Positions 1-6,396 of a stretch of 10,968 bases of DNA are shown in pieces. Source of the DNA: Armatimonadota bacterium. Its GTDB lineage: Bacteria > Armatimonadota > SYMT01. Location of the stretch: NCBI GenBank assembly GCA_020696885.1, contig JAJFMS010000035.1:1-10968 (forward strand), given 5' to 3'. The notes beneath the pieces were generated by a model. It was given only the letters and a program-made list of their open reading frames with translations. It did no database searches and was not told the origin of the DNA. Numbering within the stretch: position 1 is the stretch's first letter; each line of letters begins with the position of its first letter. The position numbers and the translations under genes were made by a program.

Positions 1-3000
1 GTCGGGCCGCTCACCGCGGAGTTTACCCTTACCTGCGCCTTCCGCCGCGCCGACGACCGCGTGACCAACGTTGCAGGCTACCGTGGCAGCGCCCCGGACG
101 GCTTCGTCGCTGTGGGTGACCGCTTCGGCGAGACCGTGGGCGGGACTAGCCTCTACTTCGATGACGACTTTATCGTCGGGACGACCGGGCTTCCGCTAAT
201 TAGCCGGTTCCCCCCGGCCGCTGGACCCGGCGGCGGCGGTTTAACGTTCGTGGCCGTCGCCATCGACCCGGTCAAGGACTACGTCATCGGCCGCGCGATC
301 GATCCGGCGACCGGCCGGGACCGCCTGCGCTTTACGTACCCGGCGCCCGTTGACAATACCAGTGACGCTTACGGCATGGACGCCGGCACCCCCTGGAAGC
401 CGATGATCTTCAGCGGGGACCGCCTGGCTACCCTGCGGAACAACGGCAACGGTTACTACCGGGTCGAGACGCTGGTGGACCTTGCTTCCAACACCGGCTC
501 CCCGGTGAGCAGTCTCCCCCCGATCATTCCGGTGCGGCAGACCGGTGCTAGCTTCTTCATCCCGGCAGTGGAGCCGGATGGCAACACGCTCCAGTTCCGC
601 CTCGCCACGCCGGAGGAAGGCGATGGGGCTACCAGGCAGACCTTCCCGCCCTACCAACAGCCGCCTGGCGTCACGGTCGACCCGGTCACCGGCGAATACA
701 GCATTCCACCGGGTCTCCTCCCCGGGCTCTGGACCACGCAGGTAGTCATCGAAGAATACGACGGCACCGGCGCGCTGATCGGGAAGTCCTCGGTTGATTT
801 CCTTTTCAACGTGATCGCTAATGCCACGGGTGTGCCACCGGTGTTCAATCGCCCGCCCACTCCTGCGGACGGCAGCGTCATTACGGCCGTCGTCGGGCGG
901 GAGACGAGCTTCCTCATCCAGGCCCAGGACCCGGACGGCGATACGGTCACCCTGAACACTACCGGTGTGCCGCTGGGCGCCCGGCAGTTTGCAAGCCTGC
1001 CATCGGTCGGGAATCTTCCGGTGAGCCTGTTCTCCTGGACGCCGACCCTGAGCGACATCGGCGCCTACAGTATTTCCTATACGGCCGAGGATGGCCGCGG
1101 CGGCTTCACGCAGACCGCCATCTCGCTCCTGGTCATCGACGGTATCGATATGCAGGAGCCGGACGGCGGGGAGTTCTACTTTGTCGACGATCTGGTCACC
1201 ATCCGCTGGGACAAGGGTAGTAAGATCCGCCCCAACGGTGTGAAGATCGAGCTTTCACGGGATGGCGGCACCACCTGGGAGGCGCCTCCGATTACGCCGC
1301 AGACTCCGGACACCGGCAGTTTCTTCTGGACGGTCACCGGCCCGCTGACCAAGAATGCCAAGATCCGGGTGACTAACCTTGCGGATCCGCTGGACTTCGG
1401 CGTTAGTGAGAACGTCTTCACGATCGGCGAAGGTCGGCAGGTTCCCGGGTGCACCACTGCCGCCGCGGCGCCGATCCCGGACAACAACCCGGTCTGGACG
1501 GAGAGCCTGCTGACGTTCCCGGACGACCTGGTGATCCGCTCCGTGCAGGTGGCCGTGGACATTTCCCACCCCTACAGCGGTGATCTCGAAGTTGAACTCG
1601 AGCACCCGGACGGCACGCGCGTACTCCTCCATGACGAGACCGGTGGCCAGGATGCGGATCTGATCGAGACATTCGGGTATGGATTTACACTCACCGCGCC
1701 GCGGGAGCCGCTGACCACGCTGTACGGGCGCCGCAGCAATGGCGTCTGGAAACTCCGCGTCCGCGATCTGAACCCTGGCGACGTGGGCACGCTCAACAGG
1801 TGGTGTCTCAACCTCATCGGGCCGGACACCGGCAGGTTCACCCTGGTGCAGCCGAACGGCGGCGAGCGGTGGGCGGTGGCTACCACCCGCCGGATCACCT
1901 GGACCTCCCAGAACGTGGTGGGGCCGGACGCAAACATCCAGGTCTCCCGCGACAGCGGCGCTACCTGGACCACGATTGCCACGGTGCCGGTCGCAGCGGG
2001 TCAGTATGACTGGCTGATCACCGGCCCGGAGACCACCCACGCTCGTATCCGGGTGGTATCTACCGAGGATCCGGTGCAGGTGGACGATAGTGATGGGGAC
2101 TTCCTCATCCAGAACCCGTTCCTGAAGGTGCTCCTGCCGAATGGCGGCGAGAGCATCTCTACCGGACAGGTGTTCCAGATCCGGTGGGACGCGGCTCCGC
2201 TGGAGACGACCGAGAACGTAACGATCGAGCTCAGCAAAGACGGTGGCGCCAATTGGAGCCCCGTGGCGACCGTGCCCAACAGCGGCTCGTTCAACTGGAC
2301 CCCGACGGTCGCCAACGTGACCGACGACGGACGGATCCGCATCACGTCGGTGAGCTCGCCGGCGCGCCAGGATCAGAGCGACAGCAGCTTCACGATCCAG
2401 CAGCCGGCACTGAGCGTGCTGGAGCCCGCTGTGGGCGACGTGTGGTACACCTACACCAGGCGCACCATCCGGTGGGGCCAGGTGGGTATTACCGGTCCGG
2501 TCAACATCGAGGTCAGCCGCGACGCAGGCGTGACCTGGCAGCTAATCATCCTCAACACGGCGAACGACGGCACGGAAGACTGGGTAGTCGCTGGGCCGGC
2601 GTCGGAAACGGGGGCGGCCAAGGTCCGTGTGGTCTCGGTGGAGAACCCAAGCCTCTTCGGAAGCAGCGATAGCTTCACGATCAAGGCGATGCGCGTGACC
2701 GTTACCGCGCCCAACGGCAACGAGGTGTTCGGTATCGGCTCCACGCAGACGATCACGTGGACCTCGGACGGCGTTCCGGGCAACGTGGACATCGAAGTGA
2801 GCCGGGATGGCGGTGAGACCTTCCAGCCGATCGTGAGCAACGTCCCCAACGGGGGCTCGAGCCTCTGGGTAGTGGACGGTCCGATTACCGCTAAAGCGCT
2901 GATCCGCGTGAAGGCGAACGGCTTCCTGGCCTCGGACGAGAGTGACGCAGTCTTCTCCATCATTACGGCGAATATTGCGGTGGTCAGCCCGACGGCCGAC

Positions 3001-4128
3001 GAAGAGCTGCGCGTGGGAGATACCGCCACACTGCGGTGGGTTTCCAACGGCGTTCCGGGCCGGGTGCGGGTGGACCTGAGCCGGGACAACGGAGCCCAGT
3101 GGCAGACGCTGTTCGCCAACACCGCCAACGATGGCAGCGAGCAGTGGACGGTGACCGGTCCGGATACCAACGAGGCGCTCATCCGGGTGTCTTCGGTCGA
3201 CCTTCCGGGCCGCTCGGGCCAGAACGCGAATCCGTTCACCATCGTCACCCCGGCCATCACCGTCGGGTCGCCGAACGGTGGGCAGACGTGGTATACCGGC
3301 GAGACCCAGAACCTCCAGTGGACGGCCAAGGGCTTCGACGGAGGTGTGCGCATCGAGCTGACCCGCAACGGCGGTCAGACCTGGGAGATCCTCTTCTCCG
3401 AAACGGAGAACGATGGCATCCAGCAGTGGACCGTGAACGGTCAGAACGCGAACAACGCTCGGATCCGCGTCACCGCCCTGTCCCAGCCGTCGGTGACCGA
3501 TCAGAGCGACGGCCCGTTCAGCATCGTGGAGCCGACGATCACGGTGGGCACGCCGAACGGCGGCCAGATCTGGCTGGTCGGCACCTCGCAGACGGTGACC
3601 TGGGGCAGCGTGGGTGTAACCGGCAACGTGGACATCGAGCTTTCCCTGGATAACGGGGCGACCTGGAGCCCGCTGTTCACCGACACCCCGAACGACGGCG
3701 CACAGGCCTGGCTGGTCTCGGGTGCCGTTTCCACCAGCGCTCGGATCCGCGTGAGCTGGAATGGTCGCAGCAGTGTCTCCGACACGACAGACAGCGCGTT
3801 CACAGTCACCCAGCCCACGATCCGCGTCACTTCGCCGGTTAACCGGACGCAGTGGTACGTAGCGGCCCGCGAGACGATCACGTGGGACGGAACCGCGGTC
3901 TCCGCAGGCGGCACCGTGGACATCGAGCTCTCGCGCAACAACGGCAAGAGCTACCAGAAGATCATCCAGGACACTGCGAATGACGGCAGCGTTACCTGGC
4001 AGGTCACTGGTAAGACGGCGAGCAAGTGCAAGGTCCGGGTGATCTGGAAGCCGATCCCGTCGGTAAGCGGCACCAGCGGCGGCACCTTCGTAATCAAGCC
4101 GAAGTCCAAGAGGGCGTCGCGCGGATAG
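1..4128 (+). CDS. Large repeat-containing secreted/surface protein with P domain (5' end missing)
   Basis: The frame is open from base 1 to the TAG at 4126-4128 (1375 visible codons). The GTG at 61 lies inside a continuing open frame, so the true start and any signal peptide are upstream of the window. Visible order: an unassigned N-terminal region (1-520); two cadherin/putative-Ig-like modules (about 520-825 and 835-1140, the second with a DPDGDTV motif and a SWTPT strand); one module of about 94 residues (1144-1425); a proprotein-convertase P-like domain (1426-1830, with SHPYSGDLEVELEHPDGT and NGVWKLRVRD); then eight more such modules (1834-4125). The modules resemble the Kre9/Knh-type extracellular domain (consensus PNGGE, TITW, IELSRDGG.TW, ARIRV). 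The product ends in a short basic tail with no LPXTG, PEP-CTERM or obvious sorting domain. No catalytic domain is visible. An adhesive or cell-surface structural role is inferred. Family assignment is good, function unknown. Confidence 0.85.
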   Translation, partial: VGPLTAEFTLTCAFRRADDRVTNVAGYRGSAPDGFVAVGDRFGETVGGTSLYFDDDFIVGTTGLPLISRFPPAAGPGGGGLTFVAVAIDPVKDYVIGRAIDPATGRDRLRFTYPAPVDNTSDAYGMDAGTPWKPMIFSGDRLATLRNNGNGYYRVETLVDLASNTGSPVSSLPPIIPVRQTGASFFIPAVEPDGNTLQFRLATPEEGDGATRQTFPPYQQPPGVTVDPVTGEYSIPPGLLPGLWTTQVVIEEYDGTGALIGKSSVDFLFNVIANATGVPPVFNRPPTPADGSVITAVVGRETSFLIQAQDPDGDTVTLNTTGVPLGARQFASLPSVGNLPVSLFSWTPTLSDIGAYSISYTAEDGRGGFTQTAISLLVIDGIDMQEPDGGEFYFVDDLVTIRWDKGSKIRPNGVKIELSRDGGTTWEAPPITPQTPDTGSFFWTVTGPLTKNAKIRVTNLADPLDFGVSENVFTIGEGRQVPGCTTAAAAPIPDNNPVWTESLLTFPDDLVIRSVQVAVDISHPYSGDLEVELEHPDGTRVLLHDETGGQDADLIETFGYGFTLTAPREPLTTLYGRRSNGVWKLRVRDLNPGDVGTLNRWCLNLIGPDTGRFTLVQPNGGERWAVATTRRITWTSQNVVGPDANIQVSRDSGATWTTIATVPVAAGQYDWLITGPETTHARIRVVSTEDPVQVDDSDGDFLIQNPFLKVLLPNGGESISTGQVFQIRWDAAPLETTENVTIELSKDGGANWSPVATVPNSGSFNWTPTVANVTDDGRIRITSVSSPARQDQSDSSFTIQQPALSVLEPAVGDVWYTYTRRTIRWGQVGITGPVNIEVSRDAGVTWQLIILNTANDGTEDWVVAGPASETGAAKVRVVSVENPSLFGSSDSFTIKAMRVTVTAPNGNEVFGIGSTQTITWTSDGVPGNVDIEVSRDGGETFQPIVSNVPNGGSSLWVVDGPITAKALIRVKANGFLASDESDAVFSIITANIAVVSPTADEELRVGDTATLRWVSNGVPGRVRVDLSRDNGAQWQTLFANTANDGSEQWTVTGPDTNEALIRVSSVDLPGRSGQNANPFTIVTPAITVGSPNGGQTWYTGETQNLQWTAKGFDGGVRIELTRNGGQTWEILFSETENDGIQQWTVNGQNANNARIRVTALSQPSVTDQSDGPFSIVEPTITVGTPNGGQIWLVGTSQTVTWGSVGVTGNVDIELSLDNGATWSPLFTDTPNDGAQAWLVSGAVSTSARIRVSWNGRSSVSDTTDSAFTVTQPTIRVTSPVNRTQWYVAARETITWDGTAVSAGGTVDIELSRNNGKSYQKIIQDTANDGSVTWQVTGKTASKCKVRVIWKPIPSVSGTSGGTFVIKPKSKRASRG
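1834..4125 (+). repeat. Eight tandem coding modules of about 282 bp (Kre9/Ig-like)
   Basis: Module starts fall at about 1834, 2119, 2407, 2692, 2974, 3256, 3538 and 3820. The last five are spaced exactly 282 bp apart (94 residues). A ninth related copy lies before the P domain at 1144-1425. Each module has PNGG or a variant near the start, a T.TW strand, a LSRDGG.TW turn, an NDG..W strand and a final ARIRV...F.I strand. DNA similarity between copies is only moderate, so this is an old protein-level duplication and not a recent satellite expansion. The strict 94-residue period in the distal part suggests later within-gene duplication there. Confidence 0.85.
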
Positions 4129-4165: not shown

Positions 4166-4177
4166 GACAACTGAACA
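4166..4177 (+). other. GACAACTGAACA motif upstream of terminator hairpin
   Basis: This 12-mer matches 11 of 12 bases of the minus-strand motif GACAACTGAATA that is repeated at 5566-5730. It lies 37 bp past the stop codon of the surface-protein gene, in that gene's sense direction, and its final A is the first base of the terminator stem. It may be part of the 3' processing or termination signal. It could also be coincidence, since a 12-mer with one mismatch is only moderately improbable in a window of this size. Confidence 0.4.
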
Positions 4178-4211
4178 GGCCGCCGGTGGATTTACCACCG
4201 GCGGCCTTTTT
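4177..4211 (+). terminator. Rho-independent terminator of the surface-protein gene
   Basis: A perfect 13-bp GC-rich stem (4177-4189 pairing with 4195-4207) closes a 5-nt ATTTA loop and is followed by a run of five T (4207-4211). It lies 48 bp after the stop codon at 4128 and reads in the plus direction. There is no matching A-tract on the left side, so it should act mainly on plus-strand transcripts. Confidence 0.92.
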
Positions 4212-4320
4212 ACGTGTTGGGGACAGCACGGTGTTGGGTGTTGGGCCGGAGACACAGCGACTGGGGAATGTAGGTAGCGATTGGGGGGCAGGAACGTGTA
4301 GCCCCAACGCGCAGTGCTGC

Positions 4321-4457
4321 GTAGGGGCACTCGCCGTGGTTGCCCTCGCCAGGCCGACCTCCCGGCGCTGGCAAAGCGGTACCGGTTGGCAGCGGTACGG
4401 CTTTGGGCGCGCCCGCACCGTCGTCGTTTGTAGGGCAACCACGGCGGATGCCCCTAC
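4321..4457. repeat. Interspersed inverted-repeat element (MITE-like or REP-like)
   Basis: The outer arms 4321-4347 and 4431-4457 are inverted copies of each other, matching at 24 of 27 positions, and begin GTAGGGGCAC. An inner imperfect inverted pair lies at 4373-4384 and 4393-4404 (AAAGCGGTACCG against CGGTACGGCTTT), so the unit could fold into a long nested cruciform or RNA hairpin. No believable ORF lies inside. Terminal arms of this GTAGGGGC type are typical of repetitive palindromic elements scattered through some GC-rich bacterial genomes. That this copy is part of such a family is inferred, because only one is in the window. The rest of the intergenic stretch 4129-4538 holds the terminator and three short GTGTTGGG repeats (4214-4245), and I see nothing else in it. 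Confidence 0.7.
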
Positions 4458-4538
4458 AAAGCAACGGCCTTGAGCCACCTCTACTTCGCGGTCGCCCCGT
4501 GCATGCGGAAACTAGCAAGCCTGGTTAGCTAGCCCCGG

Positions 4539-5351
4539 TCAGGAACCGGCAGGTTCCGTGGGGGTGGGCGCATTGAGCAGCCAGCGGATGCGCACCTTCC
4601 CCGGGGTGGTGGTTTCCACTCGTGGAACTGCGGTGCGGATCCCGCGCAGCTTCAGCAGCCGTCGCTGGTCATCGCTGACCGCCTCCGGACGGTACAGCGC
4701 GGGAGGGGCTTCCGCCAGGAGCTTCCGGGCACGCTCGCGCAGCCGCGCGGAGGCGCCTTCCATCACCACCTCCTCAATGCGGACTTCGAGAATATTGAAC
4801 ACCAGGATCCCCGAGCGCGTGGCTTCCTCCAGCGGCTTCTCGGCGAGGCGGGCGACGTACCCGCGTTCCCGGTAGAGCCGCTCGATGCCGCGCACGTCAT
4901 CCTGGAGCTGCGGAAGGCAGAGGACCTGGCCCAACTGCGTGGAGATCAACTCCTGCAGCGTGCGCAGCTCCACGATCGTGTTGCCGGTGACGCGGATGTG
5001 GAATACCCGCGGCAGCTCCGCCAGCCGGTAGGTGATCATGGTGCGGCCGTTCACGGTGCGTTGCGCCGCCGCCACACTGCGGAAGAACCCCAGGGCGAGC
5101 AAGGCCTTGCGATCCTGCTCCATCCGCGTCGCCTGGAACGGATCGCCGAGCTTGAGCGAGAGAGCGTCTCGCAGCGGTTCTTCCTGCAAATTGCTGCGGC
5201 CGGTGAACTCGATGCTGGCGACCACCGGCGGGGCTTCGTCCGCGCACACTGCCGGCCGGCCGCTGAAGGAAGCCGCCAACAAGCTGAGCGCGATGCAGAG
5301 CACCCAAGGGGTCCGTCCGGGAAGGGGGTCGAAGTGTGCTCTCGAGATCAT
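4539..5351 (-). CDS. Exported protein with three POTRA domains, no beta-barrel
   Basis: A 270-residue protein from the ATG at 5351 to the TGA at 4539-4541. This start gives a signal peptide (hydrophobic stretch at residues 15-31, likely cleavage after AVCA at 36). The frame runs on to a GTG at 5468, but that adds a non-signal-like leader and lies inside a strong hairpin, so I reject it. Three POTRA-like repeats follow: about 42-113 (IEFTGRSNLQEEPL, then LGFFRSV), 114-190 (IRVTGNTIVELRTLQELI, then LYRERGYVARL) and 191-262. The protein stops there, with no Omp85 barrel. BamA/TamA-type proteins are several hundred residues longer. A periplasmic partner in outer-membrane protein assembly is inferred. 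It could also be a degraded BamA paralogue, although the frame is clean. The ribosome binding site is weak, and the gene stands alone on the minus strand, separated by over 500 bp from the carotenoid operon. Confidence 0.82.
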   Translation of the reverse strand: MISRAHFDPLPGRTPWVLCIALSLLAASFSGRPAVCADEAPPVVASIEFTGRSNLQEEPLRDALSLKLGDPFQATRMEQDRKALLALGFFRSVAAAQRTVNGRTMITYRLAELPRVFHIRVTGNTIVELRTLQELISTQLGQVLCLPQLQDDVRGIERLYRERGYVARLAEKPLEEATRSGILVFNILEVRIEEVVMEGASARLRERARKLLAEAPPALYRPEAVSDDQRRLLKLRGIRTAVPRVETTTPGKVRIRWLLNAPTPTEPAGS

Positions 5352-5450: not shown

Positions 5451-5487
5451 CAAGAGCCCGACGACCACGCGGGTCGTCGGGCTCTTG
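5451..5487. other. Perfect 16-bp-stem hairpin, terminator-like without T-tract
   Basis: Bases 5451-5466 (CAAGAGCCCGACGACC) pair perfectly with 5472-5487 around a 5-nt loop. The stem has the shape of an intrinsic terminator, but neither side is followed by a run of T. It lies 100 bp upstream of the POTRA gene and downstream of the repeat cluster, where it could separate the carotenoid operon from the POTRA gene. It may be a decayed or Rho-assisted terminator, an mRNA-stabilising hairpin or a protein-binding palindrome. Confidence 0.6.
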
Positions 5488-5521: not shown

Positions 5522-5730
5522 CCCCACACCGGGGGTCGCTTTATAGTAGGACCCATATCGGGTCGTTTTCACTTGTCCAGGTTATTCAGTTGTCACTCCA
5601 GCCGGAGCGTCTCGCCGTTATTCAGTTCCCCCTCGCCACGAGGGCTTCGAGCCGATATTCAGTTGTCTCCCAGAGGGCACTACCGGTATTCAGTTGTCAC
5701 CATCCGGAGATGGGCAGCTATTCAGTTGTG
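5522..5730 (-). repeat. Cluster of six GACAACTGAATA motifs interleaved with hairpins
   Basis: On the minus strand the 12-mer GACAACTGAATA is exact at 5583-5594, 5656-5667 and 5687-5698. It is 11/12 at 5719-5730 and 10/12 at 5619-5630 and 5566-5577. The five better copies are spaced 36, 37, 31 and 32 bp. Reading the minus strand, four copies sit directly after a small hairpin: CCATC/GATGG (5700-5713), CCC/GGG (5669-5677), CCCTCG/CGAGGG (5630-5644) and CTCC/GGAG (5596-5607). The gap is 1 nt in three cases, while the 10/12 copy abuts its stem. Stem sequences differ but the layout is kept. Two further hairpins (5551-5563 and 5522-5535) lie at the distal end. The cluster is 3' of the exported thioredoxin-fold gene, on its sense strand. 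Function unknown: candidates are a structured 3' RNA, a small RNA, an operator array or a repetitive element. Confidence 0.7.
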
Positions 5731-5877
5731 GTGTGTTCCCGACTTCCTAACTCTTGTTTTGTTCCCTGCGGCCTTTGCCTTAACCGCTTACACGACACTT
5801 ATACCCGGCGCCGGGAAGGTCAAACACGCTGCGGAAAAAGTTCTGCGCCTTCAGGACTTGAGATGCAGAGGCTGCCG

Positions 5878-6396
5878 TCACTGCAGCAAGCCGCTGATCA
5901 TGGTGCGAACCCGCGCGAGGGACTCCGGCTGCAGCGAGCCGCTCTCCCGAGCGGCGATTCGTCCAGCGGAGTCCAGGACGAACACGTGGACCACCTTTCG
6001 ATCCTTGATCTCCAGCGCCTTGGAGAGCGCGTTGGCGGCGTAGACGGTCATGATGTGGGAGCGGGCGAGCTTGGGCGTCCCCTTGACCATCTGTCCGTCG
6101 ATGTAGCCGCGCATCAACGAGAGGTTGCCGGGCATGGCCGCGATCTCGTAGTAGTCGGCTCGCGTCTCGTCCGGGAATAGTTTCTTGAACTCGACGGCCC
6201 ACTGCTCCATCGACCGCGCGTGCGCCCGCTCGAATCCCACGACAATCAGCCAGGGTTTGCCCCGGAAGCGGTCGGTGGCTACCTTCTGCCCGGTGAGGTC
6301 CTTTCCGTTAAACCGCGGGAAAACAGCCTCCGCTCCGGTGGCGGCCATCGCCGCGAGGCAGAGCAGGAGCAGCGCCAATAGGCCTCGATACTTCAT
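5878..6396 (-). CDS. Exported cysteine-less thioredoxin-fold protein (ATP10-like)
   Basis: A 172-residue protein starting at the ATG at 6396. The start is supported by a signal peptide (MKYRGLLALLLLCLAAMAATGAEA, residues 1-24, cleaved after AEA), by GGGGAGA upstream, and by the ATGA overlap with the glycosyltransferase stop. The mature part begins FPRFNGKDLTGQKV, followed by an FRGKPWLIVVGFE strand (44-56) and SMEQW (62-66). A late VVHVFVLDSAGRI strand (135-147) resembles the ending of thioredoxin/AhpC-fold proteins. The spacing recalls the ATP10 family of ATP-synthase assembly factors and their bacterial relatives. No cysteine is left in the mature protein, so the CXXC chemistry of true thioredoxins is absent. 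It is the last gene of the carotenoid operon. A binding or chaperone role in the periplasm is inferred, and any link to carotenoid synthesis is unproven. The fold call is moderate and the exact family uncertain. Confidence 0.75.
   Translation of the reverse strand: MKYRGLLALLLLCLAAMAATGAEAVFPRFNGKDLTGQKVATDRFRGKPWLIVVGFERAHARSMEQWAVEFKKLFPDETRADYYEIAAMPGNLSLMRGYIDGQMVKGTPKLARSHIMTVYAANALSKALEIKDRKVVHVFVLDSAGRIAARESGSLQPESLARVRTMISGLLQ

Follow-up and report, generated by a model that had tools for sequence, protein, structure and literature searches.

A tandem array of motifs resembling the post-boxA element of rRNA leaders in an Armatimonadota bacterium may belong to a noncoding RNA that titrates NusA

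The minus strand of a 10,968-nucleotide contig from an Armatimonadota bacterium (the whole of which is referred to here as the window) carries an intergenic array of a short linear motif, and this motif is, as judged from its sequence, the element that follows boxA in the rRNA and tRNA leaders of Armatimonadota, ACAACTGAATA. It is the linear motif, not the hairpins lying between some of its copies, that constitutes the repeated unit. The explanation that we favour, albeit tentatively and somewhat short of an even chance, is that the array represents a noncoding RNA of about 340 nt consisting of tandem NusA-type sites, which would most likely act by titrating NusA.

A preliminary description of the window reported six copies of the 12-mer GACAACTGAATA, three of them exact, within 165 nt of the minus strand, and this repeat is confirmed by our analyses (table 1). 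With up to two mismatches allowed, the window contains six copies within 170 nt, compared to a maximum of one across 1000 dinucleotide shuffles of the same sequence; when the choice of motif was not fixed beforehand, a single 12-mer had five copies per 170 nt that did not overlap, compared to at most four in 150 shuffles. Four units fully fit the core A-N-A-A-Y-N-N-A-A-Y-A of the leader element, with unit 4 departing from it in the first letters only and unit 6 both inside and at the end; the array can be counted as having five or six units, the sixth being degenerate. The two long plus-strand ORFs at this place have no Pfam match above the cut-off (best E = 0.12) and no NCBIfam match. A search of all 10968 bases with Rfam release 15 and a tRNA scan yielded no match at the gathering score and no tRNA, placing the array outside any rRNA or tRNA leader.

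Table 1. Sequence features of the array and its surroundings in the window.
Feature	Position	Strand	Remarks
Promoter-like TTTGA-N14-GGTATAA	5799..5824	minus	one match in the window, 0/200 shuffles; RNA start expected near 5791 (inferred)
Unit 1, CACAACTGAATA	5719..5730	minus	1 mismatch
Spacer hairpin CCATC/GATGG	5700..5713	minus	seen in sequence; probably not a defining part
Unit 2, exact	5687..5698	minus	0 mismatches
Spacer hairpin CCC/GGG	5669..5677	minus	seen in sequence; weak
Unit 3, exact	5656..5667	minus	0 mismatches
Spacer hairpin CCCTCG/CGAGGG	5630..5644	minus	seen in sequence
Unit 4, GGGAACTGAATA	5619..5630	minus	2 mismatches
Spacer hairpin CTCC/GGAG	5596..5607	minus	seen in sequence
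Unit 5, exact	5583..5594	minus	0 mismatches
Unit 6, degenerate, GACAAGTGAAAA	5566..5577	minus	2 mismatches
Small hairpin GACCC/GGGTC directly after the array	5550..5564	minus	seen in sequence; T's follow on the plus strand
16-bp perfect hairpin, candidate RNA 3' end	5451..5487	minus	-32.1 kcal/mol; no U-tract on the minus strand
Intrinsic terminator, 13-bp stem and T-run	4177..4207	plus	adjoins the lone GACAACTGAACA copy
Lone copy GACAACTGAACA	4166..4177	plus	1 mismatch; missing from the preliminary description; may be chance

The likeness of the motif to the sequence following boxA in rRNA leaders, pointed out in the preliminary description, is supported by the sequences of Armatimonadota leaders. 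A search with CTTGACAACTGAAYA allowing up to one mismatch retrieved 36 matches in 28 of 61 Armatimonadota genomes, compared to 11 for the reversed control. Motif matches could be read out for 27 of 30 loci (25 of the 30 were covered by a tRNA scan), and 14 of these 27 are located either just upstream of a 16S gene (11 matches) or by tRNA genes (three matches, including neighbours of Ile/Ala tRNAs and the leader of a tRNA operon in genome G007); the remaining 13 are found elsewhere. Exact leader forms include CCTTGACAACTGAACAGTG and CCTTGACAACTGAATAGTG (loci L178 and L179). The match to the core in these leaders is by construction, because the search itself used the motif. A less dependent check, consisting in the application of a loose expression to DNA upstream of Rfam-located 16S genes in four regions, recovered the element as AAAACTAAATAG (CTTTAAAAACTAAATAGTG) in the Armatimonadota genome G042, as ACAATTAAATAG (CTTTTACAATTAAATAGTG) in G080 and as AGAACTCAATAG (TTTGAGAACTCAATAGTG) in Mycolicibacterium G254; the region upstream of the 16S gene of Pauljensenia G256 gave no match to the loose expression. 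We take the mycobacterial form TTTGAGAACTCAATAGTG to be the RNA co-crystallised with the NusA protein of Mycobacterium tuberculosis, and the window motif thus presumably resembles the RNA bound by mycobacterial NusA. The leader elements and the array units share the same sequence of 11-12 nt, and in both a G tends to occur three places past the core. However, the leaders examined carry one copy following a boxA-like CTT, whereas the window has five or six copies in an intergenic unit and none of them is preceded by such a CTT, in agreement with the preliminary description, which noted no boxA-like sequence before the copies. Binding of a boxC-like RNA by the S1-KH1-KH2 domains of M. tuberculosis NusA has been described (PMC6614801).

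Genes on the minus strand of the window are ordered as follows: an aldehyde dehydrogenase, a CrtI-type desaturase, an acyltransferase, a glycosyltransferase, a 172-residue protein and, beyond a gap of about 530 nt, a POTRA (BamA-like) gene starting near position 5351. The array is situated in this gap, which is devoid of any recognised same-strand gene, 148 nt past the stop codon at 5878. The 172-residue protein has no match among the Pfam and NCBIfam families; from its general appearance we assume that it is thioredoxin-like. A search confined to Armatimonadota found relatives of the two flanking proteins in G007 (55% and 47% identity), but no array adjoins either homologue, and orthology of the exact window locus was rejected on this ground.

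The synteny of the arrays in G113 and G042 led us to search for the neighbouring glycosyltransferase gene, which is present in 224 of 251 genomes. Among the best 30 loci examined, an array is divergently oriented with respect to this gene in four (G113, G145, G094 and G042). The genes beyond these four arrays differ, so the array unit seems to stand on its own. A comparison of G113 with G145 revealed higher conservation at motif positions (70/88) than in spacers (43/67; p = 0.044). In G094, six units were recognised by a weight matrix and two by a stricter regular expression; the matrix was trained on 33 units, with those of G113 and G042 included and those of G145 and G094 excluded. The syntenic arrays of G113, G145, G094 and G042 are followed by hairpins of -34.2, -37.8, -29.7 and -19.4 kcal/mol, respectively. 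There is no clear T-run after the 3' hairpin in G145 or in the window.

A promoter-like sequence is also common to the window and some of its relatives. The pattern TTTGA-N14/15-GGTATAA occurs 8 nt upstream of the array in both G113 and G145, 21 nt upstream of it in G094 and 68 nt upstream of it in the window; it is missing from the G042 array and from the other Armatimonadota loci examined, and 1.9 million strand positions of Armatimonadota DNA contain no further match. Two viral contigs also have it (419 loci scanned). The pattern weighs less than these numbers suggest, because it was spotted by eye before being tested. Its spacer is short for a promoter, the region upstream of the array in the window has a rank of 0.06 by a generic promoter score, and for 13 of 18 arrays assessed in this way no promoter ranks within the top 10% of random windows.

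Such arrays are rare. They occur in at least eight of the 251 Armatimonadota genomes sampled, including G042, G094, G145 and G155, the last with two copies only (locus L149). A scan of this phylum found an array in three of 251 genomes and a looser three-copy pattern added two more, with the reversed control giving none in both cases. Comparable scans of Actinomycetota and of the phylum of the Oscillospiraceae genome G257 found arrays in three of 396 and one of 299 genomes, respectively, each figure including the starting genome. Scattered arrays are also found in Bacillota and in phages, and in several GC-rich bacteria several degenerate copies precede a strong hairpin. The weight matrix applied to 364, 261 and 184 kb of G042, G113 and G007, samples that included stretches picked for holding known arrays, detected the known arrays only (the reversed control, run on G042 and G007, gave none). 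In two Nocardia the array is located between a stop codon and a terminator, i.e. in a 3' UTR; the same gene was located at 11 loci in 151 genomes of the family, and a terminator-like hairpin is found after it in nearly all cases (by eye), whereas the array is confined to the starting genome. In G136 (L316, positions 1362-1541, minus strand), a TTGACA-17-TTAAAT promoter is succeeded by a three-unit array and then by a c-di-AMP riboswitch (83.9 bits), all upstream of a uridylyltransferase-like gene, and each of the two arrays of G257 is preceded by a near-consensus promoter, at a distance of 38 and 37 nt, respectively. This scatter of settings suggests a module that is easily gained and lost.

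A scan of one genome per species yielded 86 stretches with two copies of ACAACTGAATA, each of which was inspected. Matches from Bacteroidota were set aside, as they are largely 8-bp AACTGAAY tandem repeats; these reach up to about 12 units, often with inverted copies nearby (L004, L009, L027, L058, L065, L075 and others). Nor did we count as alike two actinomycetotal loci, namely that of G584, which by eye looks like operators before a TetR-like gene, and that of G452, an array with a 25-bp period and without a clear 3'-UTR context. A family of loci from Lachnospiraceae (L002, L012, L024, L030, L041, L053, L056, L069 and L083) shows two ACAACTGAATA copies around a hairpin resembling CTTCTGGACA..TGTCCAGAAG, beyond which another stem of this kind follows. 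GC-rich viral contigs (L096, L234, L244, L251, L253 and L274) contain, by eye, short arrays of CAACTGAATA-like units just before apparent genes; some of these arrays end at an ATG, and a stronger hairpin is often found upstream of them.

In favour of an action of the array at the level of RNA are the match of the motif to an RNA element of leaders, the single orientation of the units both in the window and in the syntenic arrays, and the predicted exposure of the motif: in the seven arrays that were folded, the predicted unpaired fraction is 0.70-0.76 for motif copies versus 0.49-0.62 for base-matched positions. We envisage that transcription from the minus-strand promoter at about 5824-5799 would start near 5791 and produce an RNA that presents five or six largely single-stranded ACAACTGAATA copies and ends at a hairpin, most likely that at 5487-5451. 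Each copy (ACAACUGAAUA) would be, by analogy with the leader element, a putative site for the KH domains of NusA, which may be the natural ligand among KH proteins. A complete antitermination complex should not assemble on copies devoid of the boxA part; a short RNA bearing many NusA sites would most likely reduce the amount of free NusA, as CsrB reduces that of CsrA, and pausing, termination or rRNA transcription may be tuned as a result. NusA is an abundant protein, and titration would hence require much of the RNA. A broader proposition, which we regard as rather doubtful, is that the arrays define a family of small RNAs in which tandem rRNA-leader NusA sites behind a dedicated promoter would titrate NusA and so set termination and antitermination cell-wide, with the array of one relative coupled to a c-di-AMP riboswitch.

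The main rival to titration is action in cis, whereby the array would load NusA onto the nascent RNA and boost pausing or termination at the next hairpin, or shape its own leader; this we consider possible, if on the unlikely side. In Nocardia, Mycolicibacterium, Micromonospora, one viral contig and Armatimonadota, a strong hairpin does follow the array, and of the 20 loci whose GC content reaches 0.57, 15 have their stronger hairpin on the downstream side (p = 0.008). The position of the array in the two Nocardia, ahead of a terminator that family members possess without an array, and that between promoter and riboswitch in G136 point in the same direction, and so does the lone copy at 4166 in the window, which adjoins a terminator belonging to a plus-strand gene that ends at 4128 and encodes a large repeat protein (P-domain, BNR and Kre9-like repeats). 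However, the bias is not significant when all loci tested are considered (42/78, p = 0.11; a set derived from 108 rows by removal of 8-bp-repeat and short-flank rows, with viral loci, the window, two loci from the Armatimonadota scan and unthinned near-identical families included). Viral arrays do not show it either (51/107, p = 0.51, among 118 viral loci listed, 11 short-flank rows having been dropped); the same test on the first 79 loci listed gave 29 of 69 rows (p = 0.09). Across some 0.8 Mb from three genomes there are 14 lone noncoding matches to the motif, compared to 21 for the reversed control, and these matches have no link to terminators: a strong downstream hairpin accompanies three of the 14 matches versus three of the 21 control matches, and a general terminator add-on was rejected on this basis. 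Furthermore, arrays can have as many as nine sites, which is more than a single polymerase would need. We favour titration over action in cis because of the number of sites, the autonomy of the units and this behaviour of the lone sites.

The array could alternatively be the 5' leader of the POTRA gene, which lies downstream on the same strand, and regulate it by Nus-dependent antitermination or attenuation. In G136, and to judge from position in G094 and G042 too, an ORF on the strand of the array likewise comes after it, and arrays in some GC-rich viral contigs stand just before apparent start codons (by eye). Nevertheless, we deem such a role improbable, given that the boxA part is absent, that no array is found in the 2.8-kb locus of the G007 homologue of the POTRA gene, and that the arrays of G113, G001 and G257 are faced by convergent genes.

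The preliminary description interpreted the array as a structured RNA or a repeated binding module in which each small hairpin and the motif copy after it form one recognition unit. Its second half, a repeated RNA-binding module, remains the best reading, but the structured unit does not, and we consider it quite improbable. The four stems are indeed present in the sequence and directly precede copies of the motif, with an abutting-stem score that differs from that of shuffled spacers at p of about 0.017; yet this is weak statistical support. The four spacers do not stand out in their folding energy (p = 0.25), and the 261 nt from 5760 to 5500 fold with a z of -1.4. As to the refuting conditions named in the description, arrays do recur in other genomes, but most other copies seen lack an adjoining hairpin, and the spacer stems are not shared between arrays. 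Spacers of 1-8 nt, too short for a hairpin, are frequent in the arrays of G252, G257, G113 and G145, and the G001 array has one spacer able to form a 4-bp stem (by eye). Hairpin-plus-motif units were dropped on these grounds, spacer hairpins being no feature of the other arrays inspected and the motif copies being predicted as mostly unpaired.

Direct repeats acting at the level of DNA, i.e. operators or iterons recognised by some DNA-binding protein, would be compatible with the unit spacing of 31-37 nt in the window and have a possible counterpart in the paired operators that the G584 locus resembles. We see very little likelihood in this reading, as the unit matches an rRNA/tRNA leader element, keeps one orientation throughout the window array and the syntenic ones, and is spaced at anything from 11 nt (Nocardia) to 37 nt (the window). 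An antitoxin RNA of a type III toxin-antitoxin system, to which the 31-37 nt tandem units with a hairpin and then a gene of the same strand behind them bear some likeness, was rejected as most improbable, since the spacers differ in sequence and the downstream gene matches POTRA families and not a toxin family.

RNAs that titrate proteins are represented by CsrB and RsmZ, the sites of CsrB being GGA in hairpin loops that bind CsrA. The array would resemble these RNAs in having many copies of one short, putatively protein-binding site on a short RNA with a candidate terminator hairpin at its end; its sites differ from those of CsrB in being linear and in matching a Nus element. A regulator of termination is the target of EutX/Rli55, described as a riboswitch-controlled noncoding RNA that sequesters the antiterminator EutV (PMC5821096), and the G136 array similarly lies beside a riboswitch. 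In contrast, EutV is an ANTAR protein acting on a dual hairpin, whereas the array offers a linear motif and its target would be a general elongation factor. The Nus complex is also documented to regulate genes other than rRNA operons through boxA, e.g. suhB (PMC5725501), which shares with the array the use of Nus-type RNA elements outside rRNA operons; the element involved there is boxA, a NusB/E site upstream of genes, whereas the array lacks the boxA part and consists of tandem sites.

Searching 20 other loci with Rfam 15 gave six matches, none of them over an array, and no description of such an array was found in a literature search conducted by title and listing, mostly outside subscription papers. 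The principle of a site-array RNA is known, and what appear to be new here are the site and its use. If the array does bind NusA, it would exemplify an RNA that controls a general transcription elongation factor, be it by titrating it or by loading it locally, and the code of Nus recognition could be read outside rRNA operons as well. With the array recurring in unrelated phyla and in viral contigs, the sequence that NusA recognises becomes directly amenable to testing.

Finally, the region between the plus-strand repeat-protein gene and the POTRA gene contains two inverted copies of a sequence of roughly 26 bp (GTAGGGGCA..CGCCGTGGTTGCCCT) at 4320-4346 and 4427-4458, which is perhaps a remnant of a mobile element.
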